DNA from: Kutzneria viridogrisea
Lineage (GTDB): Bacteria; Actinomycetota; Actinomycetes; Mycobacteriales; Pseudonocardiaceae
NCBI GenBank assembly: GCA_014138725.1
Contig: JACJID010000007.1
Span: forward strand, 372,001 to 436,000
Reading direction: 5' to 3'
DNA length: 64,000 nucleotides
Of this stretch, positions 3,988 to 62,905 are shown piece after piece; position 1 is the stretch's first letter; each line of letters begins with the position of its first letter. The translations under genes were made by a program, and so were the position numbers. The notes beneath the pieces were generated by a model. It searched no databases and was not told the DNA's origin. It saw only the letters and a list, made by a program, of their open reading frames with translations.

Positions 3988-3995
3988 GTCCCCAA

Positions 3996-4012
3996 TTCTT
4001 CGAAGAACGTTC
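3996..4012. promoter_or_regulatory. Nested palindromes, probable TetR operator
   Basis: TTCTTCGAAGAA (3996-4007) is a perfect 12-bp palindrome, and GAACGTTC (4005-4012) is a second perfect palindrome overlapping it. They lie 8 bp upstream of the TetR start in the divergent region with the permease gene. Position and symmetry suggest a shared repressor site. Confidence 0.6.
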
Positions 4013-4141
4013 AGAGAACGCAACCGGCGCAATCCAACCGTAACCCAGTGACACCTTGACCTGTGAGCAAGAGCACCCTTTGATACGTCCACCGCTGATT
4101 TTCGAAGGAGCTTCAAACAACTACCCACCTGGAGGCCAGCC

Positions 4142-5610: not shown

Positions 5611-5824
5611 GGTTCGGTCAGGAGTACGAGGGCCGCTCTACTACCTGACCGGCAGCCCGGACGAGGTGTCCGTTGACATTTGACACAGTATGATCACCGA
5701 CGAGGTCCACTATGGACTGTCGGTGCCCCCGCTCCTGCCGAGCCGATCGGAGCAACCCTCCGTTTGGCGGAACCGCCCTGGTCTGTCTGACCCTGTGGCC
5801 GTCCGATCAGCCGGTGATAGCGTC

Positions 5825-5850
5825 GAATTTGTTGGTAACGAACAAAATTC
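5825..5850. promoter_or_regulatory. Imperfect palindrome upstream of the P450
   Basis: GAATTTGTT (5825-5833) and GAACAAAATTC (5840-5850) are near-complementary around GGTAAC. The site lies about 35 bp before the P450 start in an A/T-rich patch, where a repressor such as the neighbouring TetR could act. Confidence 0.5.
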
Positions 5851-5881
5851 GGGAAGCTGGCGCGAACAGAGGCAGGATTCC

Positions 5882-14517: not shown

Positions 14518-14635
14518 GGGTCCTCCCGAGGGCCGGGCCGACATCAGCGGTGTGGCGTGGACCACGTTGGGAACGGCAGTGTTCCACATCAGTGCCGGTG
14601 CGCGGAAGGTGCGACCCGAGCCGATCGAGGAGGAC

Positions 14636-43162: not shown

Positions 43163-45277
43163 ATGTCTCCTGGTGCCGAGGTGAACAACGTGATCGTCGG
43201 CCCGGTGACCAGTCCCTTTGTGCAGGCTGGCGTAATCCACGGCGGGGTCACCTTGCCTGGGCGTTCGCCGGTCTTGCCGCGGCAGCTGCCTCCCAGGCCC
43301 AGCCGATTCACCGGTAGGAAGGCAGAGCTGGCGGAGTTGACCGAGGCGCTCGATGCCGCGGTCGCCCCGGGTGCAACAGTGGTCATCTCCGCGGTGCACG
43401 GTGTTGGCGGCATCGGCAAGACCTTCCTGGCGCTCCACTGGGCTCACGAGAACGTGCAGCGATTTCCCGACGGGCAGTTGTTCGTCAACTTGCAGGGATT
43501 CGACCCGCACCAAGAACCGATGGCACCGGAGCGGGCGGTGCGCGGGTTCCTGGACGCGCTCGGGGTAGCTCCGCAGGACGTACCAGCGGAGCTGCACGCT
43601 CAGGTCGGGTTGTACCGGAGTCTGGTGGCCGATCGCCGGGTGCTGATCGTGCTGGACAACGCCCGCGACTGCGAGCAGGTCAATGAACTGTTGCCCGGCA
43701 GCAAGTCCTGCACGGTCCTGGTGACCAGCCGGGACCAGGTTGAAGGCCTGGCAGTGGAGCACGAGGTCAACCGGATCCCGCTCGGCGCGTTCGACGAGGA
43801 AGCCGCTCGTGCGCTGCTGGCGCTGCGATTACCGGAACAGCGGCTGCAAACTGAGCCCGCGGCCGTGGACGCGCTGATCAAGTGGTGCGCTGGTCTCCCG
43901 TTGGCGCTGAACATTCTCGCCGGTCGGGTCGCATCTGACCCGCACATCTCGTTGACTGACTTGGTGGAAGAGTTGCACGACACGCCTTCCCCACTCAGTG
44001 CCGTCAGCGCAGGAACCCGGTCAACCAGCCTCGAAGCGGTACTGTCGGGGTCCTACAAGGCATTGACCTCCGACCAGGCCAGGGTGTTCCGGCTCGTGGG
44101 AGTAGCCCCGGGCGCAGACATCAGCACGGAGGCCGCCGCCAGCCTGGCTGGGGCGCCAAAAGCCCAGGTCCGCAGGATCCTGCTGGACCTCCAGCGTGTT
44201 TCCCTGGTGCAGCACGAGGGGCAGGGCCGATACAGCATGCACGACCTGGTCCGGTTGTACGCAGCAGAGCAGGCGGCGCGCGATGCCGAGTCCGATGAGG
44301 CGTTGCAGCGCCTGGTCCACTTCTGTTGCCACTCAGCGCACGACGCGGACCTGCTGATCGCCCCCGACCACGCCAGAATCGACCTGGGACCGCTCGCTGA
44401 CGGGTGCACGCCGCAATCCTTCCCAAGCCGCGACAAGGCATGGGAGTGGTTCACCGCGGAACGCGCGAACCTGATGGCCACCCAGCACCTCGCCGTCGAG
44501 AAGCACTGGCATGCGGCGGTATGGCAGTTGGCGTGGACGTGCACCACCTTCAACCTGCGACAAGGCCACCTCAACGACAACCAGGTCGCGTGGATGGCAG
44601 GCGCGAGGGCCGCACAGCACCTCGGCGACCCGCGCAAGCGGACCCAGTCCTACCGGCACCTCGGGCGGGCTTGTGCACAGCTCGGGTTGCACGTAGAGGC
44701 AATCAAGCACTTGCAAGAGGGCCTTGCCGGGGCTGAGCGGGACGGTGACGTGCTCGGGCAGGCGCACACCCACCGCGCCGTGGCGGTTGCTTGGGCAGAG
44801 CAAGGCGACAACCAGCGTGCGTTGGAACACTCGCATCTTGCCTTGCAGTTGTACCGGCAGGTGGGCTCCCCCAGCGCAGCCAACGCCCTCAACGAGGTTG
44901 GCTGGTACAACGCACAGCTCGGCAAGTACGAGCTCGCGCGGGAGCACTGCACTGAAGCGCTGGCGTTGTGCCGTGGTAGGGAGAAGGCCGAAGGCGGCCA
45001 GGCGAAGGCCCTGACCAGCTTGGGCTACATCGCCTACCGCACAGGCGATTCCGCCGCAGCGGTGGACCACTACGAGCAAGCACTTCTGCTGTACCAGAAC
45101 CAGGGTGACACCTCCGCCGAGGCAGATGTGCACGACCACTTGGCCAGTGCAATCGTCGCTGATGACCAGGATCGGGCACGCAAGTCCTGGAATCGGGCAC
45201 TTGAGCTTTACCAGGCGCAAGACCGCACTGCCGAGGCCCGACGGGTCCAGCAACGGCTCGCCGACCTCACCCCGTGA
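43163..45277 (+). CDS. STAND (NB-ARC type) ATPase with TPR repeats
   Basis: A 704-residue signal-transduction ATPase. A short N-terminal segment, NNVIVGPVTSPFVQAGVIHGG, precedes the NTPase. Walker A is GVGGIGKT (80-87), the Walker-B-like VLIVLDNARD lies near 155, a TSRD sensor follows, and WCAGLPLALNILAG is the GxP motif of NB-ARC proteins. A winged-helix region (YSMHDLVRLYAAEQA) and at least five TPR units fill the C-terminal half. There is no DNA-binding or enzymatic effector domain. Such proteins act as ligand-triggered switches in regulation or defence; the glycine-rich N-terminal motif may be a docking tag. It is convergent with a TetR gene, overlapping by 11 bp. Confidence 0.88.
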   Translation: MSPGAEVNNVIVGPVTSPFVQAGVIHGGVTLPGRSPVLPRQLPPRPSRFTGRKAELAELTEALDAAVAPGATVVISAVHGVGGIGKTFLALHWAHENVQRFPDGQLFVNLQGFDPHQEPMAPERAVRGFLDALGVAPQDVPAELHAQVGLYRSLVADRRVLIVLDNARDCEQVNELLPGSKSCTVLVTSRDQVEGLAVEHEVNRIPLGAFDEEAARALLALRLPEQRLQTEPAAVDALIKWCAGLPLALNILAGRVASDPHISLTDLVEELHDTPSPLSAVSAGTRSTSLEAVLSGSYKALTSDQARVFRLVGVAPGADISTEAAASLAGAPKAQVRRILLDLQRVSLVQHEGQGRYSMHDLVRLYAAEQAARDAESDEALQRLVHFCCHSAHDADLLIAPDHARIDLGPLADGCTPQSFPSRDKAWEWFTAERANLMATQHLAVEKHWHAAVWQLAWTCTTFNLRQGHLNDNQVAWMAGARAAQHLGDPRKRTQSYRHLGRACAQLGLHVEAIKHLQEGLAGAERDGDVLGQAHTHRAVAVAWAEQGDNQRALEHSHLALQLYRQVGSPSAANALNEVGWYNAQLGKYELAREHCTEALALCRGREKAEGGQAKALTSLGYIAYRTGDSAAAVDHYEQALLLYQNQGDTSAEADVHDHLASAIVADDQDRARKSWNRALELYQAQDRTAEARRVQQRLADLTP

Positions 45278-45937: not shown

Positions 45938-46336
45938 ATGTCTCTCAAGCGGGTCACCACGGTCCTCGCCGCGCTGGTCGTCCTGGCGGGCTTCGGCTTC
46001 GGCCTAGACTTCCTGCTCAACCCGCAGGCGGCCGCGGGCTTCGGCATCACCCCGTGGCCCCAGGGCGAGGCCACCGGCTACTTCGTGGTCAAGGGCGTGC
46101 GCGACCTCGCCTACGGGCTGGTCGCGCTGATCCTGCTGCTGCACGGCCAGCGCCGCCTGCTGGGCTGGGTCGTGCTGGCCGACGCGATCATCCCGCTCGG
46201 CGACTGCCTGGCCGTGATGACGCACGGCGGCACCGTGGGCTACGCACTGGCGGTGCACGGTTCAGCGGCGGTCCTGGTGCTCATCACCGCGGCCCTGCTG
46301 CTGCGCGAGAAGCCCCAGGTGGTCAGCGCACAGTGA
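45938..46336 (+). CDS. Small four-helix membrane protein, DUF4267-like
   Basis: 132 residues with four hydrophobic segments (TTVLAALVVLAGFGFGLDFL; a second around DLAYGLVALILLL; a third around LLGWVVLADAIIPLG; a fourth around AVLVLITAALLL). Length and layout match DUF4267 proteins, whose function is unknown. ATG 45938 follows GGGGG. It is divergent from the TetR gene with duplicated operators. Its 3' end overlaps the convergent lasso B2 gene by 14 bp. Confidence 0.8.
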   Translation: MSLKRVTTVLAALVVLAGFGFGLDFLLNPQAAAGFGITPWPQGEATGYFVVKGVRDLAYGLVALILLLHGQRRLLGWVVLADAIIPLGDCLAVMTHGGTVGYALAVHGSAAVLVLITAALLLREKPQVVSAQ

Positions 46337-46730
46337 TGATCCGCCGGTAGGCCGCACAGCCGTGCGGCTCACCGACCGGCTGGCCGTCGACCTCCACCCA
46401 GGCGTGCGCGCCGAACGGTGCGGTGCGCACGCCGGAGCACCACGTCGGCCACACACCGCGCAGGCGGCACAGCAAGGCTGTGGCCAGTGACCGCTGGAGG
46501 CAGAACTGGCCAGCGCACAGCAGGCTGACCGCGACGACATCCTCGCGAGCGGCAAGGGCCTGCGCAGCGGTGGCGGGCGCGGCGCGGCGGCGGACGAAGC
46601 CCAGCACGGCCCGTATGCGCCGCGGAGAAGTACGGGCCAGGGCGCGGGCGGCGAGCACCGCGAGCCAGGGAAGGACACGACGGGTGGGCGGCAGCTTCCT
46701 CTGCTGCGACAAGGACATTGGGACCGTCAT
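46323..46730 (-). CDS. Lasso peptide leader peptidase (B2, transglutaminase-like)
   Basis: A 135-residue protein of the lasso B2 family, which cuts the precursor after its leader. The papain/transglutaminase-like triad is visible: Cys in AGQFCLQRSLA, His in FGAHAWVEV and Asp in VEVDGQPV. ATG 46730 overlaps the TGA of the RRE gene (ATGA), giving coupled translation. It is the last gene of the lasso block. No dedicated ABC exporter or isopeptidase gene follows; the next gene is convergent. Confidence 0.92.
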   Translation of the reverse strand: MTVPMSLSQQRKLPPTRRVLPWLAVLAARALARTSPRRIRAVLGFVRRRAAPATAAQALAAREDVVAVSLLCAGQFCLQRSLATALLCRLRGVWPTWCSGVRTAPFGAHAWVEVDGQPVGEPHGCAAYRRIITVR

Positions 46731-46984
46731 GCGTGCACCAGGCCGGCCTTGACGAGCGTGTCGACGATGCGCGTGACGTCGCCCTGCGCGCGGGCGGCGG
46801 CATCGGGGTGCCACTGGCTCAGGCAGCTGGCCGCCGAGGTGGCGGTGCCGCCGTCGAGCAGGTGGCGCAGCACGAGCGTGGCGGAGCGGTTGAGCTGGAA
46901 GTACTTGCCGAGGTGCTCGTCGAGCAGCACCGCCCCGTCCTCGGTCTCGGTCATGGCCACGTGGGCGCGCAAGGTCCAGGTCAC
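46727..46984 (-). CDS. Lasso peptide RRE protein (B1, PqqD-like)
   Basis: An 85-residue RiPP recognition element that binds the leader and presents it to the B2 protease. PqqD-like features are seen: AVLLDEHLGKYFQLNRSATL for the beta-strand/helix region and DVTRIVDTLVKAGLV for the last helix. GTG 46984 overlaps the TGA of the cyclase gene (GTGA) and has GGAGG upstream, which fixes the start at VTWTLRAHV. The YxxP segment of the leader is its expected target. Confidence 0.92.
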   Translation of the reverse strand: MTWTLRAHVAMTETEDGAVLLDEHLGKYFQLNRSATLVLRHLLDGGTATSAASCLSQWHPDAAARAQGDVTRIVDTLVKAGLVHA

Positions 46985-48780
46985 GGCTCCTCCAGGGTGC
47001 GCAGCCAGCTCTCGCAAGCCAGCGTGGGGTCGAGCTGGATGAACGAGGACGGCGCGTGGTGCACGGAGACGAGCAACTCGCGGACGAGCCGGTCATCGAT
47101 CAGGCCACGTCGGGCCAGCACCGAGTCGGCGAACAACTCGGCAAGGCCCGCGCGGTGGGCGCGGAAGCCCGCGTACACCTCGGCGCTGAACTCGCCCTTG
47201 CTCCTGCGGTCGAGGATGAACCCGGGCACGATCCCGCGCATCGCCTCGGCCAGCACCGGCTTGAACTGGTGTGGCGCGCCTCGGTCCTCGATGCGCACGG
47301 CGAGCGCTGCCGCCACGACGCTGTCGTCCAGCAGCGGCACCTCCAGCGGTACACCGTGTCGCCGCATCAGCCGGTCCGCCTGACGAACCGCCGCACTCGC
47401 GAGCCGCGCCTCGTGCAGGGCCCGGTGCTGCGCGCGATCGGCGGCCAACTCCTCGACCTCCCCGGCGACCTCCCCGTACAGGGCCCGCGCCGCCTGCACG
47501 GCCACGCGAGTGGCCCACGGCGGCATGCGCCCCTCGATCGACCACCCGAAGTCGGGTCGCTGGCCGCGTGGCCACGGTGAACCCAACAGATCGGCGCCGA
47601 CGCGGAGCGATTGCCGGTAGGTCGAGCGGTCCCGCAGCCCGGCCAGCACCGAGGTCAGCGGCCAGCGCCCCATGGCCCGGTAACCGCGGAGCCTGCGCAG
47701 ACTGGCCAGCGGGCGGTCACCGACCAGGCCGTGCAGGTGCGCGACGGGCAGGCTGAACAGCTCGTCGCCGCCGTGCCCCGCGAGGTGGACGCGGGCTCCG
47801 GAACCGGCGACCACCTCGCCGAGGTGAGCCAGCTTCTGCCGACCCCGGATCCAGGGGAACGGCAGCTCCGGATCGGTCCACTCCCCCGCGCCGGGCGCGA
47901 GCCCGGCGAACATCATCGGGCGGCTGCCCGCGGCGAGCACCCGGTGCTCGGTGTCCACCTGGCGTGCGGCGCGAGCGGCCCACAGGATGTCCTCGTGCTC
48001 GGGGTCACGAGGTTCCTCCACCACCGACACCACCCGTGCGGCGCCGTGTGCGGCGATGGCGCACAGCGAGGTGGAGTCCATGCCACCGGAGAGGTCGGCG
48101 CTGACGGTGCCGCCGAGCCGGGTGCGGACCGACACGGCTGCGGTGAGCGCGTCACGGACCTCGCGGGCGCCTTCGCCCAACGGGAGAACCGGGTCCGGGG
48201 CAGACCACCAGCGCACGGTGCTGCCGCGGCCATCCCGCTCGGCGAGCAGGTACCTGTCGGCGGGGACCGAGTGCACACCCCGCCAGGGCGACAGGTCGGA
48301 CAGCCCGTGCGGCAACGCGGGCGCCACGAGCCTGGCGGCGAGCACTCGTTCGTCGATATCGGCCCCGATCGCGCGGGCCAGCACCTCGCCGCGGTCAGCC
48401 GCCACTGTCACGCCCGCGACGCACGCGTGCCAGACGCGGCGGACACCGGAGGCGGTTCCCCGTACCCGCAACCGCCCGTCCAGTGCGGCGATCAGGTGGA
48501 AGCTGCCCGGCACCGCGTCGAACGCGCTCGGGTCGCCGCAGCGGGCGAGCTTCCTGGACAGCTCCTCGCCGGTGATCCCGGCGAGCCCGAGGAGGGCGAC
48601 GGCCGCGGTCCGCGTCCGGGCGTGCAGGATCTCGTGCGGGGACCAGGAACCCAGCAGCCAGGGACGCCCCGACGGGTGGTTCAGCACGCACCGGGCCGAA
48701 GGCCTGAGGACCAGCGCGGCGGGTCGCGCCCGCTCGCAGTCGGGCAGCGCGGCGAACCAGGAATCCCGCGGCGACTGCAC
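46981..48780 (-). CDS. Lasso cyclase (C protein, asparagine-synthetase-like)
   Basis: A 599-residue macrolactam synthetase. The N-terminal part resembles the glutamine-hydrolase half of asparagine synthetase but lacks the catalytic Cys1, as in lasso cyclases. The ATP-pyrophosphatase loop SADLSGGMDSTS (near residue 228) adenylates the ring Asp. Later conserved pieces are LAGHGGDELFSLP and KPVLAEAMRGIVPGF. GTG 48780 (VQSPRDSWF) follows GAGGGGAG, so the gene begins 80 bp after the precursor stop, past a strong hairpin. Confidence 0.95.
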   Translation of the reverse strand: MQSPRDSWFAALPDCERARPAALVLRPSARCVLNHPSGRPWLLGSWSPHEILHARTRTAAVALLGLAGITGEELSRKLARCGDPSAFDAVPGSFHLIAALDGRLRVRGTASGVRRVWHACVAGVTVAADRGEVLARAIGADIDERVLAARLVAPALPHGLSDLSPWRGVHSVPADRYLLAERDGRGSTVRWWSAPDPVLPLGEGAREVRDALTAAVSVRTRLGGTVSADLSGGMDSTSLCAIAAHGAARVVSVVEEPRDPEHEDILWAARAARQVDTEHRVLAAGSRPMMFAGLAPGAGEWTDPELPFPWIRGRQKLAHLGEVVAGSGARVHLAGHGGDELFSLPVAHLHGLVGDRPLASLRRLRGYRAMGRWPLTSVLAGLRDRSTYRQSLRVGADLLGSPWPRGQRPDFGWSIEGRMPPWATRVAVQAARALYGEVAGEVEELAADRAQHRALHEARLASAAVRQADRLMRRHGVPLEVPLLDDSVVAAALAVRIEDRGAPHQFKPVLAEAMRGIVPGFILDRRSKGEFSAEVYAGFRAHRAGLAELFADSVLARRGLIDDRLVRELLVSVHHAPSSFIQLDPTLACESWLRTLEEP

Positions 48781-48810
48781 TGCTGCTCCCCTCTCGTGTG
48801 CGCGGAAACC

Positions 48811-48850
48811 ACCTGTGTGCCCGGGACAAATCCGTCCCGGACACACAGGT
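48811..48850 (-). terminator. Strong hairpin between precursor and cyclase genes
   Basis: ACCTGTGTGCCCGGGAC (48811-48827) pairs with 48834-48850 over 17 bp with one mismatch (a G-U pair in one RNA strand) around a six-base loop. It begins 10 bp after the precursor stop. No U-run follows on the minus strand, so it may act as an attenuator or as a 3' stabiliser that makes precursor mRNA more abundant than enzyme mRNA. Confidence 0.75.
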
Positions 48851-48860
48851 CCTGTCCCGG

Positions 48861-48980
48861 TTACGGGATGGGCGTGAGGCCCCAGGTGTCGAAGACGGTG
48901 CCGACCCCGCCCATCGTCAGCTCGGCGTAGTCGCCGATCTCCACCACCGCGGGTGGTTCGTAGAGGTCCTGTGCTTCCAC
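48861..48980 (-). CDS. Lasso peptide precursor (39 residues)
   Basis: GTG start with AGGAGG five bases ahead; 39 codons, too short for routine gene calling. The leader begins MEAQDLYEPP, with the YxxP recognition motif at residues 7-10, a Gly at 16, and ends ELTM with Thr at the penultimate position, as lasso leaders require. The predicted core is GGVGTVFDTWGLTPIP (residues 24-39). The Gly1 amine would close onto Asp8, giving an 8-residue ring and an 8-residue tail that holds one Trp and no Cys, so class II. From the sequence I calculate a monoisotopic [M+H]+ of 1598.82 for the threaded core without further tailoring. The cyclase, RRE and B2 genes follow at once. Confidence 0.93.
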   Translation of the reverse strand: MEAQDLYEPPAVVEIGDYAELTMGGVGTVFDTWGLTPIP

Positions 48981-49038
48981 GTGTCCTCCTCTTCTTCCTC
49001 CCGGGCGCGGCTCCGCACCCGAAGTCCACATTGGACAC

Positions 49039-49839
49039 TCACTCGACTGCCTCGGCGATCACGGAGGCGAGCAGGTGCGGCGCCGTCACGTGGGCGAGGT
49101 GGCCCTGCCCCGCCAGCCGGACCACGCGCGCGGCGGGCATCACCCCGGTGAGGATGGCGAAGTCCGTGCCGAAGGGCGGGCTGCCCTCGTTGAGCGCGCC
49201 CACCACCAGCGTGCTCGGCACGGAGACCCCGGCCCAGTCGGTGAGAACCGCTTCGTGGCCGTTGATGGCGGCGATCTCCTCGACCACCGCCGCCACCAGC
49301 GGTCTCACCGAGGGCCACTGCTCGGCAGCCAGCATCGGGGCCACCTCGGTCTGGGACAGGCCCGAGATGTCCAGGGTCACCGTGCGCAGTACCTCGACCA
49401 GATCACCGCGCCGCGAGGCAGACACCAGGTCCGCGAACCGGTCCGCCCCGAACGGTCCCACGCTGGGTTCGTAGAGGACCAGCGCGCGCAGGTCAGTGCG
49501 CGACCTGGCCACCTCCAGCGCGATGAGGCCGCCATAGCTGTGTCCGAACAGGACACACGGCTCACCGAGGGCGTCGAGCACGGCGTGCAGGTCCTCGACC
49601 TCCGTGCGCAGCGTGTAGTCCGTCCCGAGTGGACCGCTCGGCGGGCGGCCCCGCCGGTTGACCACGATCACCGGGTTGGGCAGGACGATCGCCTCCACAA
49701 CGGACCGCCACCCGGTCGCGTCGGCGATCGCCCCGTGTACCAGCACGATCGGCGGCCCCTGCCCGGCGCGGACCGTCGCGGCCAGCGCGGTACCGTCCGC
49801 ACCGGTGAACACCCGCTCGGCCGTGGCGTGCTCAGCCAC
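49039..49839 (-). CDS. Alpha/beta hydrolase upstream of the lasso precursor
   Basis: A 266-residue cytoplasmic serine hydrolase. The oxyanion segment is HGAIADATGWRSV, the nucleophile elbow GHSYGG, and the late His lies in GQGHLAHV. GTG 49839 lies 8 bp inside the end of the PanC-like gene, so the two are coupled. The stop is 58 bp before the lasso precursor start with no visible terminator between. It resembles esterases and acyl-transfer hydrolases of the proline-iminopeptidase type. Its partner genes suggest it edits or releases an acyl or amide intermediate; this is an inference. Confidence 0.85.
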   Translation of the reverse strand: MAEHATAERVFTGADGTALAATVRAGQGPPIVLVHGAIADATGWRSVVEAIVLPNPVIVVNRRGRPPSGPLGTDYTLRTEVEDLHAVLDALGEPCVLFGHSYGGLIALEVARSRTDLRALVLYEPSVGPFGADRFADLVSASRRGDLVEVLRTVTLDISGLSQTEVAPMLAAEQWPSVRPLVAAVVEEIAAINGHEAVLTDWAGVSVPSTLVVGALNEGSPPFGTDFAILTGVMPAARVVRLAGQGHLAHVTAPHLLASVIAEAVE

Positions 49840-50707
49840 GAGCGACCAGTTCCGGTGGCAGTTCACGGCCCAGCGGGTGGTTGTCCAGCACCCGCACCCG
49901 CCCGAGGTCCGCGGCCACCACGACGAGCGAGCCGGAGTCCGCCGTCTCCCGGTCGTCGAAGGAGTCCTTGTCGACCACCGTGGCGTAGTCCAGCCTGGCC
50001 CCGGGCTGCTCGGCGATGCGGGCACGGGCGACCGCGGTCAGTGCGCGCACGTCGCGCTCGCCCGCGTCGTAGCGCAGCTTCGCCAGGCGAACCGCGTCCA
50101 CCACGCACAGGGCGGCCGCACGTTCGGCTTCGTCCATCAGCGCGTTGCGCGAGCTGACCGGCAGGCCGTCGGCCTCCCGCACCGAGGGGCAGGGCACCAC
50201 CTCGCAGGACCACCACAGGTCCCGCGCGAGCCGCTTCATCACCGCCACCTGCTGTGCGTCCTTCTCCCCGAAGTACCAGCGGTGCGGAACGCAGATGTGC
50301 AGCAGCTTGGTGCAGATCGTGGAGATGCCGGTCAGCATGTTGGGCAGCCTGGCCGCCTCGTAGCGGCCCTCCAGTTCGGGCAGGGTGATCCGGGTGACGT
50401 GGCCCGGCGGGTAGACCGCCTCGCGCGGGGGCACCACCACGGCGTCCACCCCGGCGGCCTCCAGCTTCGCCAGGTCTCCCTCGTCGTCGGAGGGATACCG
50501 GTCGGCCTCCGCGGACTCGTTGAACATCAACGGGTTGACGAAGATGCTGCTGACGACCACGTCGTTCTCCGCCCGTGCGCGGTCCACCAGGCTCAGGTGG
50601 CCGCGGTGCACGGCGCCGAGCGTGCCGAACATGCCGATGCTGCGACCGCTCTCCCGCAGCTTCTCGTTGTGCGCTCGGAACTCGATCGGGTCGGTGAAAA
50701 CCTTCAT
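49832..50707 (-). CDS. PanC-like pantoate-beta-alanine ligase homolog
   Basis: A 291-residue ligase that should activate a carboxylate as an adenylate and transfer it to an amine. Family landmarks: FGTLGAVHRGHLSLVDRA in place of PTMGxLHxGHLxL, SSIFVNPLMFN, YFGEKDAQQVAVMKRL and SSRNALM. Departures from housekeeping PanC include the altered first motif and DRYPSDDEGDL where YPR is usual. With a hydrolase and a cyclase-family gene in one operon it is more likely a secondary-metabolism amide synthetase than the vitamin B5 enzyme. ATG 50707 is the only good start. Confidence 0.85.
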   Translation of the reverse strand: MKVFTDPIEFRAHNEKLRESGRSIGMFGTLGAVHRGHLSLVDRARAENDVVVSSIFVNPLMFNESAEADRYPSDDEGDLAKLEAAGVDAVVVPPREAVYPPGHVTRITLPELEGRYEAARLPNMLTGISTICTKLLHICVPHRWYFGEKDAQQVAVMKRLARDLWWSCEVVPCPSVREADGLPVSSRNALMDEAERAAALCVVDAVRLAKLRYDAGERDVRALTAVARARIAEQPGARLDYATVVDKDSFDDRETADSGSLVVVAADLGRVRVLDNHPLGRELPPELVARG

Positions 50708-50737
50708 CGGGACTGACCTCCGGTGCGACCGAGGGGA

Positions 50738-51664
50738 CTACTTGATGGCCAGCGGGTTGATCGGGGAGCCCACGGCCCTGGTGAACTTCAGCGGCGAACC
50801 CGCGTAGAAGAACTCGTAGCGGCCGTCGGCCGCGCAGGACCTGGCCAGCTCCTCCAGGTCCAGGATCTCGGCCAGGGTCACGCCCATGTCCCTGATGAGC
50901 ACCATGTGCAGCTCGAACATGCTGTCAGGGCGCTCGCCGGGCACGACCTCCACCGCGAAGTTGTCCGCGCCGACCACGGCCACGTCCCGCTCGCGCAGCC
51001 AGGGCAGGCAGCGCAGGCCGAGTCCGGGTTCGGTGCCGGTGAACGCCACCGGGTCGCGGTCGTGCAGGAACTTGGGCCACCAGCCGGTGCGGATCAGCAG
51101 GATGTCGCCCTCGCCGACGGTGACCCCGTGGGCCCGCTCGGCCGCCTCCAGGTCCTCGGGCGTGATGACCTCGCCGCCGTCCATCCAGTGCACCCCGCGC
51201 AGCCGGGCGAGGTCGAGCAACACCCCTCGGCCGACGATGCCCTTGGCCTGGGTCTCGATCCCGCACCGGGCCGCGCCCTTGCTGGTCACCTCGTGCCCGG
51301 GGTGGCCGTTGTACAGCTGCCCGTCGTAGTGCACGTGTGCCAGCGAGTCGTACTGGCTGCCCGCCTGCAACGGCATGAACACGTAGTCGTCGGCCCAGGT
51401 CAGACCGCCGGGCAGGTCCTGCTCCTGGCCGTTCTCCGACATCAGCCGGACCGGGTTCTGCCGTCCGCCGCCCGGCTGGGGGCCCTCGGCGTCCAGCGGG
51501 ATGCCCAGGTCGAACACCTGCCCGGTGCGGATCAGCCCGGCCGCGGCGACGATCAGCTCCGGGGTGATCAGGTTGGTGGTGCCGCGCTCGTCCTGCGCGC
51601 CCCACCGCCCCCAGTTGCTCAGCTCCGCGCCCAGGGCACGGACCTCGGGCAGGTCTTCGGTCAT
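50738..51664 (-). CDS. Cyclase-family metal hydrolase (kynurenine-formamidase fold)
   Basis: A 308-residue member of the PF04199 cyclase family. The metal-site region reads LQAGSQYDSLAHVHYDGQLYNG, the long-form variant of the usual HxGTHxDxPxH. Other pieces are the GDILLIRTGWW strand and VVGADNFAVEVVP near the second metal site. ATG 51664 follows GGAGG with good spacing. Family members open amide or lactone rings or act on isatin-type substrates. It is the first gene of the row hydrolase-PanC-esterase-lasso, 30 bp ahead of PanC, and has the tandem operator upstream. Confidence 0.85.
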   Translation of the reverse strand: MTEDLPEVRALGAELSNWGRWGAQDERGTTNLITPELIVAAAGLIRTGQVFDLGIPLDAEGPQPGGGRQNPVRLMSENGQEQDLPGGLTWADDYVFMPLQAGSQYDSLAHVHYDGQLYNGHPGHEVTSKGAARCGIETQAKGIVGRGVLLDLARLRGVHWMDGGEVITPEDLEAAERAHGVTVGEGDILLIRTGWWPKFLHDRDPVAFTGTEPGLGLRCLPWLRERDVAVVGADNFAVEVVPGERPDSMFELHMVLIRDMGVTLAEILDLEELARSCAADGRYEFFYAGSPLKFTRAVGSPINPLAIK

Positions 51665-51797
51665 CGCTGTCCTCCGCGGTTTCCGGGAAGGGGAATCGAC
51701 ACCACACGGGAAGCGGGAGCCCATTCCGAAGCGCGTTCGGAAATTCTCCCGGACGAGGACGTTACGCAATCAGGGCCGTGCACGGCGGAGCCGTTCC

Positions 51798-51832
51798 GGT
51801 CAGCTTGGTCAGCGACAGGTGAAGCTGGTCAG
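51798..51832 (-). promoter_or_regulatory. Tandem 15-bp sites upstream of the PanC/lasso operon
   Basis: On the minus strand: CTGACCAGCTTCACC, a 5-bp spacer, then CTGACCAAGCTGACC. The pair lies 134-168 bp ahead of the cyclase-family gene start and just after the stop of the TPR regulator. The same arrangement and spacing occurs at 53239-53273 in front of the DHA2 exporter. Bases 51665-51797 hold no gene. Confidence 0.7.
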
Positions 51833-51853
51833 ATTCGGTGAACCAGCCTGAAT

Positions 51854-53140
51854 TCAGGGGGTCAGATCGGGCGTCACCGATGCCGCCGACAACCGCGCCC
51901 GCAGGGTGTCGGCCACTCGGCGGGCGTTGTCCGTGCGGTGCTCGCCGCTGAGCAGTTCGTCCCTGGCCGCGCGCAGCCCGAGCCGGACCTCGTTGATCAG
52001 CTGCTCCGGGGCCAGGTCCAGCACCGGGCCCAGCACGCAGAGCCCGCGGCACAGCTCGCCGCCCCGCAGCAGCGCCCGCATCAGGTCGATGCGGATCAGC
52101 GCCTCCACCGCGTAGGACCGCCCGCTCGTGGGCAGGCGGTGGCACCAGTCCAGCGCGTCGGTCAGCTCGGTCAGCGCCCCGTCCAGGTCGCCCAGCGCCA
52201 GCAGGGTCCGGCCGGCCAGCTGCGCCTCCCCGTCCCGGTCCAGGTGCGGCACACCCCGTCGGCCGCCCTCGTTGCGCTCCCGCAGGGCCTCGGCCTTGGC
52301 CAGCGCACGACGTGCCTCCTCGGCCAGCCCCGCCTCCGCCCACGCGCGGGCCGCCACCAGGGTCAGCACGGTGTCCAGGCCGTCCTCGGCCGGGCAGGCC
52401 AGCCCCTGGGTCGCCAGGCGGGCCGCCTCCAGGTGGTGGCGCGCGCCGTGCGCCAGGCGGGCCTGCGCGATGCGGGCCCAGCGGCGGGCCTCGTTGTCCT
52501 CGGCCAGGTCGGCCAGGTCCCAGGCCGCCGAGGCCTGGTTGTAGGCGGCGTTGCCGTCCCCGAGGTCGTCGGACATCCACGCGAGCAGGGTGCAGAACTT
52601 GGCGCCGAGCACCAGCAGTTCACGGCGCTCGGCGGGCCGCTGGTGACCCTGCAACAGGCGGGCGACGCGGTCACGGCCCATCGCCGCCCGGTAGATCAGT
52701 GCCGAGGGCGGCACGTGCAGGTAGGACAGCGCGATGCCGTGGAGCTTGCCGCGCACCTGGGCGAGGGTGGACTCGTCGGCGTTGGTCTGCGACACGCTCT
52801 GCACCAACCGGGCGGAGGCGCAGGAGTCGCTCACCAGCGGGGTCAGCCTGCGCTGGCCCACCACCCCGGGCGAGGCCGGGGTGCGCGGGGACCCCGGCCA
52901 GACGGACCCGATGTCCACGTTCTCGTGCAGGTGCTCGGACAGCACCGCCACCACGGTCTCCGGGATGCCCTTGCGCGGGTAGGAGCCGCGCAGCCAGTGG
53001 TAGGGCGCCTTGGGGCTGACGGTGCCGTCACCGCGCAGCCGGTTGATCTCCCGCGCCAGCTTCTCCGGCGACCAGTTGAGCCTGGCCAGGAAGTCGGCCA
53101 GTCCCGTGGCCTCAGCCATGTCCGCGATCAGCTCCCCCAC
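51854..53140 (-). CDS. HTH-TPR transcriptional regulator of the lasso/PanC locus
   Basis: A 428-residue regulator. The N-terminal 75 residues hold a helix-turn-helix-like segment (SPEKLAREINRLRGDGTVSP, then PYHWLRGSYPRKGI). The rest is helical TPR-type sequence (AAWDLADLAEDNEARRWARI, TELTDALDWCHRL), as in actinomycete XRE/TPR regulators that sense a small peptide or ligand. The GTG start at 53140 is listed; ATG 53119 is a close alternative. It lies between two copies of the tandem operator, upstream of the lasso-type operon and divergent from the exporter, so it is the obvious candidate to bind both. Confidence 0.85.
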   Translation of the reverse strand: MGELIADMAEATGLADFLARLNWSPEKLAREINRLRGDGTVSPKAPYHWLRGSYPRKGIPETVVAVLSEHLHENVDIGSVWPGSPRTPASPGVVGQRRLTPLVSDSCASARLVQSVSQTNADESTLAQVRGKLHGIALSYLHVPPSALIYRAAMGRDRVARLLQGHQRPAERRELLVLGAKFCTLLAWMSDDLGDGNAAYNQASAAWDLADLAEDNEARRWARIAQARLAHGARHHLEAARLATQGLACPAEDGLDTVLTLVAARAWAEAGLAEEARRALAKAEALRERNEGGRRGVPHLDRDGEAQLAGRTLLALGDLDGALTELTDALDWCHRLPTSGRSYAVEALIRIDLMRALLRGGELCRGLCVLGPVLDLAPEQLINEVRLGLRAARDELLSGEHRTDNARRVADTLRARLSAASVTPDLTP

Positions 53141-53238
53141 ACCTGCCGAACACCGCGTTCGGTACCGAAGTCCAGGAATTCGTTACCGTACTCCCGGCGC
53201 GAGTGCGGATTGACCAGTGGTCCGCGCCGTTATTCACA

Positions 53239-53273
53239 CTTACCAAGTTGACCAGCTCCTGACCAAGTTGACC
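53239..53273 (+). promoter_or_regulatory. Tandem 15-bp sites upstream of the DHA2 exporter
   Basis: CTTACCAAGTTGACC (53239-53253), a 5-bp spacer, then CTGACCAAGTTGACC (53259-53273), in the divergent region between the TPR regulator and the exporter. It is in the same orientation relative to the downstream gene as the pair at 51798-51832, and its second repeat differs by one base from the second repeat there. Confidence 0.75.
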
Positions 53274-53375
53274 GAACTCCCCTCTTTCCCGAAATCGGAA
53301 CGACCCGCTCCAATATCTCCCGAGCGACTGTGCGTGCAGCCGAATTCCGATGACAAGCAGTGGGAGTACACCGGC

Positions 53376-54938
53376 GTGATCAACGAAGCCAGCAGGAAAT
53401 GGTGGGTGCTGACCGGGGTCAGCATCGTCAGCTTTCTCGGCTGCATCGACCTGACGATCGTCAACACGGCCGCTCCGGACATCGGCCGCGACCTGCGGAC
53501 GACCGTGACGCAGATGCAGCTCATCGTCAACATCTTCGTGGTCGCGCTGTCGATGTTCATGGTGACCGCGGGCCGGCTCTCCGACATCCTGGGCAGGCGC
53601 AAGGTGCTCTACGCGGGCACCGCCCTGTTCGGGCTCGCCTCGCTCGGCGCGGGGCTCGCGCCCAACATCCCGCTGCTGGTGGTGTTCCGGTTCCTGCAGG
53701 GCGCGTCCTGCGCGGTGCTCTACACCAGCTCCAGCACCATCGTGTCCAACGCCTTCCCCGAGTCCCAGCGCGGCAAGGCGATCGGCACCCTGTTCGCGGT
53801 CAACGGCATCGGCCTGGCCATCGGCCCGATGCTGGGCGGGCTGATCGTGGGCGCACTGAACTGGCACTGGGTGTTCCTGGTCAACGTGCCGCTGGTGGTC
53901 ATCGCCCTGGCGATCTGCTCGGTCAGCCTGACCGAGTCCAAGGCCGACACCGACGTGGAACTGGACTGGCCGGGGCTGGTGCTGCTCGCGCTCGGCCTCT
54001 CCGGTGTGATCTTCGCCTTCACCTTCAACGACACCTTCGGCTGGGGCTCCTGGCAGGTGCTCGGCACGCTGGCCGTCGGCGTGCTCGCCCTCGTGGTGTT
54101 CGTGATCGTCGACCGCAGGCAGCGGTTCCCGCTCATCCCGTTCAAGCTGCTGGCCAACAAGCTGTTCCTCAGCGCGGTGACCGCCGAGTTCTCGCTCGCG
54201 TTCTTCTACACCACCGCGCTGTTCCTGATGCCGCTGTACCTGAGCACGGTGCGCCACTACGACGAGCTGACCATCGGCCTGATGATGCTGCCGACCACCG
54301 CCACCGTGGCGGTGCTCTCCCCGCTGGTGGGCAGGCTGGTCGACAAGGTCGGTCCGATCATCGTGCTGACCACCGGGTTCGCCGCGTTCACCCTGTCCGC
54401 CGTCCTGCAGTCCCAGTTCGACGCGCACAGCGGGATCGGGTACGTGGCCGCCGCCTTCGTGCTGATGGGCATCGGCTGGGCGTTCGTGCTCGGGCCCGCC
54501 GCGGTGGCCGCCCTGTCCGCGGTGCCCCAGCGGCTGTCCGGGCTCGCCGTGGGTGCCACCTGGACCTTCCACAACTTCGGCGGGGCGGTCGGCCTGGCCC
54601 TGGGCATGACCCTGTTCCGCGGGTTCGGCGAGAGCGCCCTGCGCGGTGGCCTGGCGACACAGGGCGCGACCGCGGGGCCGTGGACCGCCGAGGTCGTGGC
54701 CAAGCCCGGCTCGGCGGCGGACCTGCTCCAGCAGCACGCGGGCCTGGGCCAACCCGCCGCGGGCGACCTGGTGGACTCGCTGTTCGCCGCCGGGGACCGG
54801 GCGGCGATGCTGCTGCTGGTCGGCACCTCGCTGGTCGCGATGGTGACGATCTTCGTGCTGGGTCGGCTGCGCGGCCGCGACCAGGGGCAGGTCGCCGAGA
54901 CCACCCAGGAGGAGCCTGCGGACCTGCCCGCCTCCTGA
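53376..54938 (+). CDS. DHA2-family (14-helix) MFS drug/peptide exporter
   Basis: A 520-residue membrane exporter with about 14 helices. The loop 2-3 signature is GRLSDILGRRKVLY, the antiporter motif C region is NGIGLAIGPMLGGLIVG, and the D1-like motif is FLGCIDLTIVNTAAPDIG. GTG 53376 (VINEASRKW) follows GGGAG. The lasso block has no ABC transporter of its own. This gene shares the tandem operator with the lasso operon, so it is a reasonable candidate for exporting the lasso peptide or the PanC-pathway product. DHA2 proteins usually move small drugs, so the peptide role is tentative. Confidence 0.9.
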   Translation: MINEASRKWWVLTGVSIVSFLGCIDLTIVNTAAPDIGRDLRTTVTQMQLIVNIFVVALSMFMVTAGRLSDILGRRKVLYAGTALFGLASLGAGLAPNIPLLVVFRFLQGASCAVLYTSSSTIVSNAFPESQRGKAIGTLFAVNGIGLAIGPMLGGLIVGALNWHWVFLVNVPLVVIALAICSVSLTESKADTDVELDWPGLVLLALGLSGVIFAFTFNDTFGWGSWQVLGTLAVGVLALVVFVIVDRRQRFPLIPFKLLANKLFLSAVTAEFSLAFFYTTALFLMPLYLSTVRHYDELTIGLMMLPTTATVAVLSPLVGRLVDKVGPIIVLTTGFAAFTLSAVLQSQFDAHSGIGYVAAAFVLMGIGWAFVLGPAAVAALSAVPQRLSGLAVGATWTFHNFGGAVGLALGMTLFRGFGESALRGGLATQGATAGPWTAEVVAKPGSAADLLQQHAGLGQPAAGDLVDSLFAAGDRAAMLLLVGTSLVAMVTIFVLGRLRGRDQGQVAETTQEEPADLPAS

Positions 54939-58238: not shown

Positions 58239-59534
58239 TCAGTCCAGGGCGGACAGGTCGGCGCCCCGGGTCTCCGGCATGGTGAGCACGGCCAGGGCAC
58301 CGAGCAGACACAGCACGATGATGTAGCAGGTGAACACCCAGGACAGGTGCTGGGCCTCGAGCAGTTCACCCAGGTAGGGAGCGGTGCCGCCGAACACCGC
58401 ATTGGACAGCGAACTGGCGATGCCGATGCCCTTGCTGCGGGACCGGGTCGGCAACAGCTCGGAGACCACCGCCGGGTAGACCGAGGCCACCGCGGCCCAC
58501 AGCACCGAGGCGAGGAACTCGGCGGCGAACAGCGTCCAGCCCGCGTCGGTGACGATCCCGGTGATGGGGAAGGCGAGCACCGCGGAGCCCACGGCGAACA
58601 CCAGCACCACCGGTCGGCGGCCGATCCGGTCGGACAGGCGGCCCCACAGCGGGAGGGCGAACAGCACGAGCAACTGGGCGAGGAAGGCGGCGAGGAACGC
58701 CGTGCCACCGGGCATGCCGTGCCTGCTGACCGCGTTGCCGACACCGAACACGATCCACGAGTAGTACATGACCCCAATGCCCGCGCTGATCACCACGATG
58801 CGCACCCCGGAGCCGAGCAGCCGGGCTCGCGACCACTGTGGACTGTCCACTACGGACGATGACTCGAAGACCTCGCTCTCCACGGCGGTGCGGCGCAGGT
58901 GCAGCGCGAACAGGCCGAGCAGCCCGCCGAGCAGGAACGGCACGCGCCAGCCCCAGGTGGCGAGCTGCTCCGGTGGCAGCACCGCGGTCAACAGCGCGCC
59001 GAGCCCGGTGGCCAACAGGGTGCCCGCGGAGACGCTCAGGAACACCGAACTCGACCACAGGCCACGGCGTTCACGCGGAGCGATCTCGGCCACGTAGGCG
59101 TAGGCGGCCGAGGACTCACCGCCGTGCCCCATGCCCTGAGCGAGCCGCGCCAGCAACAGGATCACCGAGGACCAGGTGCCGAGCTGTCCATAGTCCGGGA
59201 CGAGCCCGACGACCAGGCTGCTGCCCGCGGTGGTGAGCATCGTGACCACCAGCACCGCACGGCGGCCGATCCGGTCGGCCAGCACGCCGAACACGACCCC
59301 GCCCAGCGGCCGGGTGACAAAGCCGACCGCGAACACCGCGAAGGTGCTCAGCAGCGCCGAGACGTGGTCGGCCTGGTTGAACAGGGCTGAGGCCAGGTAT
59401 GCGGCGAACACCGCGTAGACGTTCCAGTCGTACCACTCCAGCGCGTTGCCGAACACGCTGGCCGCCAACGACCGGACCCGGCCCCGCGCGCCCACGCCTG
59501 CCGAACGCGCTTTCCGCACAACGACATCTGCCAT
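58239..59534 (-). CDS. MHS-family metabolite:proton symporter (second)
   Basis: 431 residues, 12 helices. Signatures: SVFGNALEWYDWNVYAVFAA, GVLADRIGRRAVLVV, RLAQGMGHGGESSAAYAYVA and the C-terminal MPETRG. ATG 59534 lies directly after the AroM-like stop, so it is the last gene of the NRPS-ABC-AroM operon. Its substrate is unknown, and it is not close to its convergent neighbour in detail. Confidence 0.9.
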   Translation of the reverse strand: MADVVVRKARSAGVGARGRVRSLAASVFGNALEWYDWNVYAVFAAYLASALFNQADHVSALLSTFAVFAVGFVTRPLGGVVFGVLADRIGRRAVLVVTMLTTAGSSLVVGLVPDYGQLGTWSSVILLLARLAQGMGHGGESSAAYAYVAEIAPRERRGLWSSSVFLSVSAGTLLATGLGALLTAVLPPEQLATWGWRVPFLLGGLLGLFALHLRRTAVESEVFESSSVVDSPQWSRARLLGSGVRIVVISAGIGVMYYSWIVFGVGNAVSRHGMPGGTAFLAAFLAQLLVLFALPLWGRLSDRIGRRPVVLVFAVGSAVLAFPITGIVTDAGWTLFAAEFLASVLWAAVASVYPAVVSELLPTRSRSKGIGIASSLSNAVFGGTAPYLGELLEAQHLSWVFTCYIIVLCLLGALAVLTMPETRGADLSALD

Positions 59535-59535
59535 C

Positions 59536-60213
59536 TCATTCCCCCACAAGCAGTTCAGCCGTCAGGCGCGCGGCCAAGCTCCGGATGAGCAGCACTGGAC
59601 CGCCGAACACCCCGGCCGCGACCGCGCGCATCTGCTCGTCGAAGCCGAAACAGTCCAACACCACCAGGTCGCACTGGTCAGCGATGCCCGCCACCGCGGC
59701 GGCCAACTCCCCTGGCGCCGCGTCGAACGGGTTGACCACCGCGGTCGCGAGCTGATCGGTGCCCAGCACGCGGCACCAGGCCCTGCGCGCGGGCTCGACC
59801 TGATCGGCCAGCGGTCGCAGCACCCCGACCCGCAGCCCATTGGCGAGCCCGGACACCGCGTGCTGGGCCAGTTCCTCGGTGCGCAGCAACGGTTTTCGGT
59901 GCTCGATCTCGCCGAAGGACCCGCCGCAGGCCAGCAGCACCACGTCGGCGCCCGCACTCTCCGCACGCCGCACGGCCGCGGCCACCAACCCCTCGGCGAG
60001 GTCGTGCCGGTACACCACCGCCCTGCCGTCCGCGAGCCTGGTGGTCAGCGCTGGCTCGCCGGGGCTGGGCGCCATCGCGGCGATGGTGTGCTCCGCCAGT
60101 CCGTCCAGCGCACCGTGTTCGAGGATGCGGCACGGCGGCAGCAGGGCGCGCAGCTCGGCCACGAGGTCCACGCGCGGTGTCTGCCCGATGGTCACCAGGC
60201 CCAGTGTCCGCAT
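59536..60213 (-). CDS. aroM: AroM-family protein (Asp/Glu racemase-like fold)
   Basis: 225 residues with the AroM landmarks MRTLGLVTIGQTPRVDLVAE at the N-terminus, VLLACGGSFGEI in the middle and LVVLDCFGFDEQMR near the end. The two Cys positions match those of the wider Asp/Glu/hydantoin racemase superfamily. Its biochemical role is not established. It lies between an amino-acid ABC transporter and an MHS transporter, a context seen for uptake or racemisation of amino-acid derivatives. Confidence 0.85.
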   Translation of the reverse strand: MRTLGLVTIGQTPRVDLVAELRALLPPCRILEHGALDGLAEHTIAAMAPSPGEPALTTRLADGRAVVYRHDLAEGLVAAAVRRAESAGADVVLLACGGSFGEIEHRKPLLRTEELAQHAVSGLANGLRVGVLRPLADQVEPARRAWCRVLGTDQLATAVVNPFDAAPGELAAAVAGIADQCDLVVLDCFGFDEQMRAVAAGVFGGPVLLIRSLAARLTAELLVGE

Positions 60214-60225
60214 CCCGAGCTCCCG

Positions 60226-61131
60226 TCACCGCAGTCCCGGCGGGTTGACCTGGGACTGCCGGATGGCGGCCGACTCCAGGCCCCACTTGGCCATGATCTT
60301 CTGGTACGCCCCGTCGTCGATCAGCTGCTGCACCGCCAGGCGCAGGGGCTCGCTCAGCGGGGAGTCGTGTTTGAGCACGAAGCCGACATGTTCGTCGTAG
60401 ATCTTATTGACGTAGGTCATCCGCCCGCGCTGCCGCTCGGCCGCGTACTGGAGGAACACGCTGGAGGAGACCAGCACGTCCATCTTGTTCTGGGACAGCG
60501 CGAGCATGCTGTCCGCCGTGCTGCGGTACACCGACACGTGGTAGTCCGCGCGGGACCGCGCCGCGCACTCGCCCACCCGCTGGTGCAGCACCTGCTCGAA
60601 GCTGGTGCCCGCGGTGGTGCCCACCCGCAGGCCGCACAGGTCCGCGGGGCCCTGGATGGGCGGTTGCTGGCGCCCCGCCCTGACCAGGAAGCCGAAGCCG
60701 TCGTCGTAGTAGGTCACGAAGTCGACCAGCTTCTTGCGCTCCTCGGTGACCCCGAAGTTGCCCTGGCCGAGGTCGTAGCGGCCGGATCCGAGCGCGGGCA
60801 GGATCTCGTCGAAGGTGGCGTCCTGCGAGTCCATGCGCACGCCGAGAACCCGGCCGACCGCCTGCTGGAGGTCGATCTCGACGCCGATCAGCTTGCCGTT
60901 GGTCTCGGAGTAGTAGCGGATGGGCGGGCTGCCCTTGGCCGCGGTCGCCACCCGGATCCGGCCGCTCGCGCGGACCTGCGGTGGCAGTTTCGCGGCGATG
61001 GCGGGGTTCGGCGCGATCCCGGACACCACGTCGGCGACCGGATCGCCCTCGGCACCGGTGTCTCCCGACCCCGCGCAGCCCGCCGTGAGCAGGGCTGTGC
61101 ACAGCACGGCGGCCAGCACACGGCCCCTCAC
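60226..61131 (-). CDS. Amino-acid ABC transporter substrate-binding lipoprotein
   Basis: 301 residues starting with a lipoprotein signal ([17 protein letters not shown]). The periplasmic-binding fold of the polar amino-acid group is seen at [57 protein letters not shown] and [21 protein letters not shown] 61131 overlaps the ATPase stop (GTGA). It captures a small amino acid or related compound outside the membrane for the adjacent permease and ATPase. Confidence 0.92.
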
Positions 61132-61910
61132 CGGTCGACCTGCACCCGGGACAGGAACGCGCGCGTCCGGGGCTGCTCGGGGTCGACCAGCACGCGCTGC
61201 GGCGGGCCGCTCTCCACCACCTCGCCGTCGTCGAGCAGCACCACCGTGTCGGCGACCTGCTTGGCGAAGCTCATCTCGTGAGTCACCACGACCATGGTCA
61301 TGCCGCTGGCCGCGAGGTCCCGCATGACCGCGAGCACCTCACCGACCAGTTCGGGGTCCAGGGCACTGGTCGGCTCGTCGAACAGCATCAGCTTGGGCTC
61401 CACCGCGAGCGCCCGCGCGATGGCGATGCGCTGCTGCTGCCCGCCGGAGAGCTGCCGCGGGTAGGCCTGCTCGCGGCCGGTGAGGCCGACCCTGGCGAGC
61501 AGTTCGGCCGCGGTGCGCTCGGCATCGGCGCGGGAGCGGCCCCGTACGGCGATCGGCGCCTCGACGAGATTGTCCAGCACGGTCATGTGCGGGAACAGGT
61601 TGAACCCCTGGAAGACCATGCCGATCTCGGCACGCCTGCGGGCGATCGCCGACTCCTTCAGCTCGTGCAGCCGGCCCCGGTGGCGGCGGTACCCGATCAG
61701 CCGACCGTCGATCTCGATCTCCCCGGCGTCGATCTTCTCCAGGTGGTTCAGGCAGCGCAGCAGCGTGCTCTTGCCCGAGCCCGAGGGGCCGATCACGCAG
61801 GTGACCTCCCCGGCGTGCACGTCCAGGTCCACCCCGCGCAGCACCGGGACCGCACCGAAGTTCTTGACCACCCCGCGCGCCCGCACCATCAGCGGTGCCG
61901 TCTCGTTCAC
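61128..61910 (-). CDS. Amino-acid ABC transporter ATPase
   Basis: A 260-residue ATPase. Walker [11 protein letters not shown]-loop in [17 protein letters not shown], signature [15 protein letters not shown], Walker [18 protein letters not shown] and switch His in [15 protein letters not shown] are all intact. The family is the polar amino-acid (GlnQ/HisP-like) group. It overlaps the permease stop by 4 bp (ATGA) and the binding-protein start by 4 bp, giving tight coupling. Confidence 0.95.
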
Positions 61911-62905
61911 GGATCATCCCTCCCACTGGGCGCCGGTCGCCGCGGTGCGGCCAGCACGGCCCGCCACCGCGAACGCAGCCGCTGCACCGGGGTCGGCGGC
62001 AGCTGGCGCAGCGCGCCCCTGGCGTAGAAGCGTTCGACGTAGTACTGCACCACCGAGAGCAGGCTGGTCACGATGACGTACCACAGGGTCGCCACCAGCA
62101 GCAGCGGGATGATCCGGTAGTTGCGGTTGTAGACCAGTTGCACGGTGTAGAGCAGGTCCTCCACGGCGAGCACGCTCACCATCGAGGTGCCCTTGAGCGT
62201 GCCGATCAGCATGTTGCCCGCGGCGGGCACGATGGAGCGCATGGCCTGTGGCAGCACGACCCTGCGGAAGGTGCGCCACGGGCTGAGCCCCAGTGCCTGC
62301 GCGGCCTCGGTCTGCCCCTGGTCCACCGACAGCAGGCCGCCGCGCACGATCTCCGCGGCGTAGGCGGCCTCGTGCAACACCAGCCCGATCACGGCCGCCG
62401 CGGTCGGGCCGATCAGGTTGACCATGTCGATGGTCTGCAGGGTCGGTCCGAACGGGATGCCGATGGACAGCGTGGGATAGAGCGCGCCGATGTTGAACCA
62501 GAACAGCAACTGCACCAGCAGCGGGGTCGACCGGAACAGCCAGACGTACCCCCAGCTGAGCGAGCTGAGCACCGGGTTGCGTGAGACTCGCATGACCGCG
62601 AGCACCGTGCCCAGCACGAAGCCCACGACCACCGTGACCACGGTCAGCCACAGGGTGACGACCAGGCCGTCCAGCACGGCACCGGAGGCGAAGTAGCGCG
62701 CCACGAACGGCCAGTCGAAGTTGGGGTTGGTCAGCACCGAGTGCAGCGCGAACCCGCAGCACAGCAACGCGATCGTCGCGGCGATCCACCTGCCGGGGTG
62801 CCGCAGCGGCACGACCTCGCGCGGGGCGGGCCGCCGACTGTCCGGTGGTCGCGGCGGATCGGCGACGGTACCGCCGATCGCGCCGCTTGCGATGTCCTCT
62901 GCCAC
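61907..62905 (-). CDS. Amino-acid ABC transporter permease
   Basis: A 332-residue permease. After about 60 mostly polar N-terminal residues there are five to six helices and the EAA-type loop [23 protein letters not shown] near the C-terminal third. [16 protein letters not shown] is typical of the HisMQ/GlnP group. GTG 62905 starts 3 bp after the NRPS stop, so the transporter is in the NRPS operon. Only one permease is present, so it probably works as a homodimer. Confidence 0.93.

Follow-up and report, generated by a model that had tools for sequence, protein, structure and literature searches.

The window analysed here is a stretch of 64,000 nt from Kutzneria viridogrisea (Pseudonocardiaceae; GCA_014138725.1, contig JACJID010000007.1, positions 372,001–436,000, forward strand). 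Its minus strand carries, from 48980 down to 46323, a four-gene operon for a predicted lasso peptide, the frames of which were read directly in the order A-C-B1-B2. Gene A (48861–48980, 39 codons) encodes the precursor, C (46981–48780, GTG start, 599 residues, motif SGGMDS) the lasso cyclase, B1 (46727–46984, GTG start at 46984, 85 residues) a leader-binding RRE/PqqD-like protein, and B2 (46323–46730, ATG start at 46730, 135 residues) a transglutaminase-like leader peptidase. A and C are separated by 80 nt that hold a perfect hairpin (48811–48850). The C/B1 junction is a GTGA overlap and the B1/B2 junction an ATGA overlap, and Shine-Dalgarno-like sites are present for A, C, and B1. An initial annotation of this DNA had listed the same gene order and couplings, and both frame reading and domain models bear this out.

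The precursor consists of a 23-residue leader, MEAQDLYEPPAVVEIGDYAELTM, and a 16-residue core, GGVGTVFDTWGLTPIP. The gene starts with GTG at 48980, with AGGAGG a few bases 5' of it, and the core-coding part (48911–48864) together with the stop codon (48863–48861) occupies 48861–48911; an in-frame ATG at 49031 is an alternative start that would give 56 residues. Third-position G+C of the gene is 0.875 and the G+C content of the window is 0.713. The leader contains the motifs known as YxxP (here YEPP) and Thr-2, as the initial annotation had stated, and YxxP and the Thr are also present in related precursors. It is already recognised by a public model (NCBIfam NF033521, lasso_leader_L3, 32.3 bits, cut-off 19, E 5.9e-8); no Pfam family matches the precursor. 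According to excerpts of PMC9266682, lasso cores have Asp or Glu at position 7–9 and class II is defined by the lack of a disulfide. The core has a ring-competent Gly1, an acid at position 8, and no Cys, hence no disulfide, as expected of class II. Asp8 is its only acidic residue, so that a Gly1–Asp8 ring, the one previously proposed, is the only one possible if cleavage occurs after Met-1, and the predicted tail is TWGLTPIP. Recalculation of [M+H]+ for the ring-closed core gave 1598.8213, in agreement with the earlier value of 1598.82.

C is assigned to the asparagine-synthase-like macrolactam cyclases by Pfam PF00733 (Asn_synthase, 147.7 bits, cut-off 21, E 9e-43). B1 exceeds the cut-off of NCBIfam NF033530 (lasso_PqqD_Strm, 91.9 bits, cut-off 70) and matches PF05402 and solved TfuB1 (PDB 6jx3, chain 6jx3_B, E 1.6e-9). 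B2 is above the cut-offs of NCBIfam NF033537 (lasso_biosyn_B2, 112.8 bits, cut-off 33) and PF13471, and has only two weak matches among solved chains (E 0.53 and 0.68). It contains a Cys in CLQRS, a His in HAW, and a Glu at His+12, which we take to be the catalytic residues; these positions (Cys of C[LV]xR[SA], His of HAW, Glu at His+12) are kept in 29 of 29 aligned B2 sequences. Across 31 loci, comprising 30 from a cyclase search (own locus included, about 1.5 kb flanks) and 8 kb around a second lasso locus of the same genome, a B1 homologue lies near C in 29 and a B2 homologue likewise in 29, the present locus among them, while L022 and L026 have neither. The genome contains two PF13471 (B2 family) matches, one per lasso locus. 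We conclude with high confidence from these sequence features that A, C, B1, and B2 form a class II lasso peptide operon that looks functional and whose product would have a Gly1–Asp8 ring and a threaded tail. The system itself is a known, standard lasso gene set of the split-B type, and only the core sequence is new to the collections searched.

Occurrence of the core and its relatives

The core was not recognised among known lasso peptides in the initial annotation, and it is indeed absent from the genomes and open-licence papers searched. Twelve precursor matches (E ≤ 0.001), own included, were found in 390 genomes of the family, the other 11 all with a YxxP leader, the Thr, and a different lasso-like core. 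Three precursor matches, own included, were found in 397 genomes of the order, again without a second copy of the core. Scanning 84,980 species genomes with a degenerate DNA pattern that encodes G-[T/S-like]-[hydrophobic]-FDTWGL did not recover the core; the own genome is possibly absent from this set, and cores differing within those nine residues would escape. The six stretches that fit this pattern were rejected as lasso precursors, four being part of one long conserved Nocardia frame and two of unrelated frames. Neither the core nor its inner parts were found in open-licence PubMed Central full text, supplementary files not covered. With C as query, 110 of the 390 family genomes, own included, gave a homologue at E ≤ 1e-40 (up to three candidates per genome scored). 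Because of this abundance, and because the 11 non-self precursors have differing cores, finding a new core is the rule in this class.

In a cyclase phylogeny covering 26 of the 30 loci, C pairs with the cyclase of L033 (genome G247) with support of 97/93, a grouping flagged as long branches meeting, and the adjacent clade carries LP2006- and felipeptin-like cores. L020, L029, L032, and L036 were left out of the tree as they lack the SGGxDS motif used to find the frame. The G247 locus (L003/L033) also provides the best non-self precursor match in the family (65% over 31 residues) and shares the junction 'LTM-GG' and the 'FD', but its core, GGSMGISFDGTHARWEYL, has the acid at position 9 and its A–C gap is only 21 nt and without a hairpin. 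The precursor at another locus, L019, is the published A127-LP of Actinoalloteichus fjordicus with its GTG read as first Met (excerpts of PMC5974421).

The second lasso-type locus of the genome (L069; contig 10, 295500–303500) has C, B1, and B2. In its unusual precursor, ...YEAPALIAAGSFAKVTAGGPVQGQGGGGHGKWGHGRDHCCRRRVHDC, the first acidic residue is 21 residues past the leader Thr, far beyond the usual ring size; in the related loci L031, L034, and L043, the leader Thr is closely followed by CGKCGWGRD.

The hairpin between A and C

The hairpin (48850–48811, minus strand) consists of 18 uninterrupted base pairs and a 4-nt loop, with no T-run behind it. A 91-nt stretch folds at −45.9 kcal/mol, whereas its shuffled versions average −30.8 (z = −4.66), and none of 200 shuffles was as good. 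A repeated element was rejected, as a genome search allowing up to three mismatches located the hairpin only once, and so was a classical terminator, given that no terminator-like site was found in 46000–53300. A and C were pairable in 25 of the 30 loci; gaps were counted up to where the aligned C begins. Stems of 9 bp or longer occur in ten of the twelve loci with a gap of at least 80 nt versus none of the 13 with a shorter gap. The z-score is below −2 in only five of these twelve (60 shuffles each, folding limited to the final 400 nt), and the stem trend is thus partly due to length and G+C content. Of the ten loci (within L014–L043) whose stem reaches 9 bp, nine, all but L041, sit in a single branch of the cyclase tree, which has 12 rows and includes the LP2006-like and felipeptin-like cores.

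Excerpts of PMC5974421 report an inverted repeat of the 'terminator-like' type between A and the downstream genes in many lasso clusters, and for 9401-LP1 of Streptomyces sp. ADI94-01 a 2–4 fold increase when a promoter cassette was put in place of the 216-bp intergenic region. This increase could be explained by the new promoter alone. The A–C hairpin is a known kind of feature of lasso clusters. It probably cuts read-through or stabilises the upstream message, which would yield precursor in excess of enzyme. It is alike in form to the hairpins of some related operons and offers a handle on precursor versus enzyme levels.

Predicted maturation, competing readings, and genomic context

Following established lasso biochemistry, B1 would bind the leader around YEPP and B2 would cleave behind Met-1, the residue that follows Thr-2. 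C would then adenylate Asp8 and join it to the amino group of Gly1, yielding an 8-residue ring through which the tail TWGLTPIP would thread. The mature peptide probably serves as a secreted small molecule directed against other bacteria or as a signal to them.

Several observations weigh against this reading of the operon. No dedicated lasso-type ABC exporter D was found among the open reading frames of the window that were scanned (not every frame was covered), so that 'complete', the term previously applied to the locus, holds for A, C, B1, and B2 and not for D. Such an exporter is frequent but not obligatory in lasso clusters. The ABC genes at 61128–62905 adjoin a gene for a solute-binding protein and have the appearance of an uptake system, and MFS-type frames lie at 13192–15063, 53217–54938, and 58239–59549. 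The best NCBIfam match of C, to NF033561 (albusnodin/ikarugamycin macrolactam cyclase), reaches 245.4 bits and stays under the cut-off of 300, its match to NF033535 reaches 40.7 bits under a cut-off of 525, and C has no match to any solved structure chain at 1e-5. The closest cyclase in other family genomes has at most 45% identity, and a DNA-pattern search for close relatives with C returned 40 stretches and no relative; none of the searches gave a close orthologue by which conservation of this particular core could be judged. Past Trp10 the tail lacks aromatic and basic residues, which puts the locking side chain in doubt.

This last point bears on an improbable alternative, in which the enzymes work and the product is branched-cyclic (unthreaded) or unthreads easily. 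Class II lassos are held by a steric lock of bulky residues according to excerpts of PMC9266682, and TWGLTPIP offers no bulky lock after Trp10. Sungsanpin and chaxapeptin, listed in Table 1 of PMC12427821, are class II lassos with the same D8-x-aromatic-G-L pattern and thereby argue for threading, yet they have aromatic or larger hydrophobic ends.

Directly upstream of A, on the same strand, are genes for an alpha/beta hydrolase, a PanC-like ligase, a putative cyclase, and an NsdA-family regulator. The hydrolase frame, its start best set at 49839 and overlapping the end of the PanC-like gene, ends only 58 nt before the precursor start. The PanC-like gene (49832–50707, minus strand) is a divergent second copy with 39% identity to the other PanC homologue of the genome. 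At E ≤ 1e-60 none of the other 389 family genomes (of 390) contains a match to it (up to six candidates per genome scored), nor is there an orthologue in the genus, and the gene is in this respect as strain-specific as the lasso genes. The proximity of the hydrolase and this strain specificity would fit a cluster that extends to the putative cyclase, the PanC-like ligase, and the alpha/beta hydrolase, which would then modify or process the lasso peptide, a view compatible with a class II lasso product. We consider it improbable that they do so. Two relatives of the PanC-like gene (40–44% identity) were found among 394 genomes of the class, and neither has a B1 or B2 homologue within 1.5 kb on either side; the upstream genes could equally serve another pathway, and we know of no role in lasso maturation for these three families. 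The other flanking gene tried for an insertion-site comparison belongs to a large paralogous family.

A silent or decaying locus that makes nothing is less likely still. No sigma-70-type promoter match was found in 46000–53300, which is a poor test for actinobacteria, and the finding that no other family genome has a cyclase more than 45% identical to C would agree with such a state. It is opposed by four open frames, the overlaps at C/B1 and B1/B2, Shine-Dalgarno-like sites for three of the genes, and domains and motifs that are all in place. A functional-looking class II lasso operon remains our preferred reading.

The remainder of the window holds further genes. A single 8546-codon frame (14636–40276, minus strand) encodes a giant non-ribosomal peptide synthetase with ten Condensation, seven AMP-binding, and nine carrier-protein stretches, as determined by scanning in two pieces, and is followed by the MFS-type frame at 13192–15063. 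Counting the NB-ARC/TPR protein at 43163–45277 (plus strand) itself, the genome has 31 matches to it at E ≤ 1e-60, compared with 54 in one congener. A frame for a family S58 peptidase (2309–4120, minus strand) is divergent to an amino acid permease (4142–5497, plus strand), with a cytochrome P450 frame (5690–7099) next to them. At 59536–62905 (minus strand) an AroM-like protein is encoded beside the solute-binding protein, ABC ATPase, and permease of the apparent uptake operon.

Comparison with published lasso peptides

All 62 rows of Table 1 of PMC12427821 were compared with the core in ungapped alignments of 12 positions. Acinetodin was the best published core among these rows (score 38, 6 of 12 identical), followed by caulonodin VII (20), citrocin (17), ubonodin (16), and sungsanpin and chaxapeptin (15 each). 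When the core was shuffled with Gly1 and Asp8 fixed, 27 of 5000 shuffles reached a score of 38 against some row (mean best score 17.4), whereas six identities were reached in 616 of 5000. By identity alone the match is therefore not unusual, and the resemblance to acinetodin is suggestive at most. An earlier comparison with 38 hand-picked cores (37 of the 62 table rows and 9401-LP1) had given 0.38% and 11.6%; it looked stronger because caulonodin VII was left out, and with all 62 rows acinetodin still comes first.

Acinetodin, from Acinetobacter gyllenbergii, has an 8-residue ring of the form GGxGxxF[E/D] followed by Thr-Trp, as does the core described here. A GGxG-type ring closed at residue 8, a feature taken from the table rows, is thus present with Asp in place of Glu. 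Acinetodin differs in this Glu8, in its 18 residues ending in YYG, in its proteobacterial origin, and in the presence of an ABC exporter gene, aciD (excerpts of PMC6784204). It inhibits RNA polymerase in vitro and was inactive against the bacteria tried, according to the same excerpts.

It is very unlikely that the present lasso peptide likewise inhibits RNA polymerase in the manner of acinetodin and microcin J25, although this would be compatible with the proposed operon. The idea draws on the first rank of an inhibitor, with a score of 38 versus 20 for the runner-up and few shuffles as high, and on the third and fourth ranks of citrocin and ubonodin, which are inhibitors too. It is weakened by the frequency of six identities in shuffled cores and by the second rank of caulonodin VII, which to our knowledge is not an RNA polymerase inhibitor. 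Furthermore, microcin J25, citrocin, ubonodin, acinetodin, and klebsidin have a common C-terminal Tyr-Gly, and the RNA-polymerase-inhibiting lassos known to the 2021 review were all proteobacterial (excerpts of PMC8183687), whereas the core ends in Pro-Ile-Pro and the cyclase tree, which had no proteobacterial rows, places the operon among family loci. Because the C-terminal Tyr-Gly is missing, RNA polymerase as a predicted target is a lead only. Least likely of all is the combined scenario that an actinobacterial operon independently reached the microcin J25/acinetodin ring (GGxGxVFD-T-W), inhibits RNA polymerase without Tyr-Gly, and is possibly tailored by the upstream PanC-like ligase and hydrolase. 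Resistance via a second RNA polymerase beta-prime gene was rejected, with one PF04997 match in the genome.

Sungsanpin and chaxapeptin are produced by actinobacteria. Both have Asp8 followed by Ser-Phe-Gly-Leu, comparable to Asp8 followed by Thr-Trp-Gly-Leu in the core described here, but they are 15 residues long, have an otherwise unlike ring, and end in large hydrophobic residues (Table 1 of PMC12427821). Among the few published precursors compared, the closest leader is that of 9401-LP1, which is identical at 16 of 23 positions and ends in AELTM. The 9401-LP1 peptide has been produced in Streptomyces, with tandem mass spectrometry as the check (excerpts of PMC5974421). Unlike the present core, that of 9401-LP1 is an 18-mer with an unrelated sequence that starts with Ala and contains a disulfide (type III), and the gap downstream of A is 216 bp versus 80 nt here.

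Novelty with respect to all collections searched is confined to the core and does not extend to the lasso system, and the general understanding of lasso peptides is unchanged by the finding. What the operon adds to a class with antibacterial members is one well-supported new core with a directly searchable predicted mass, and its ring likeness to acinetodin provides one specific candidate target.

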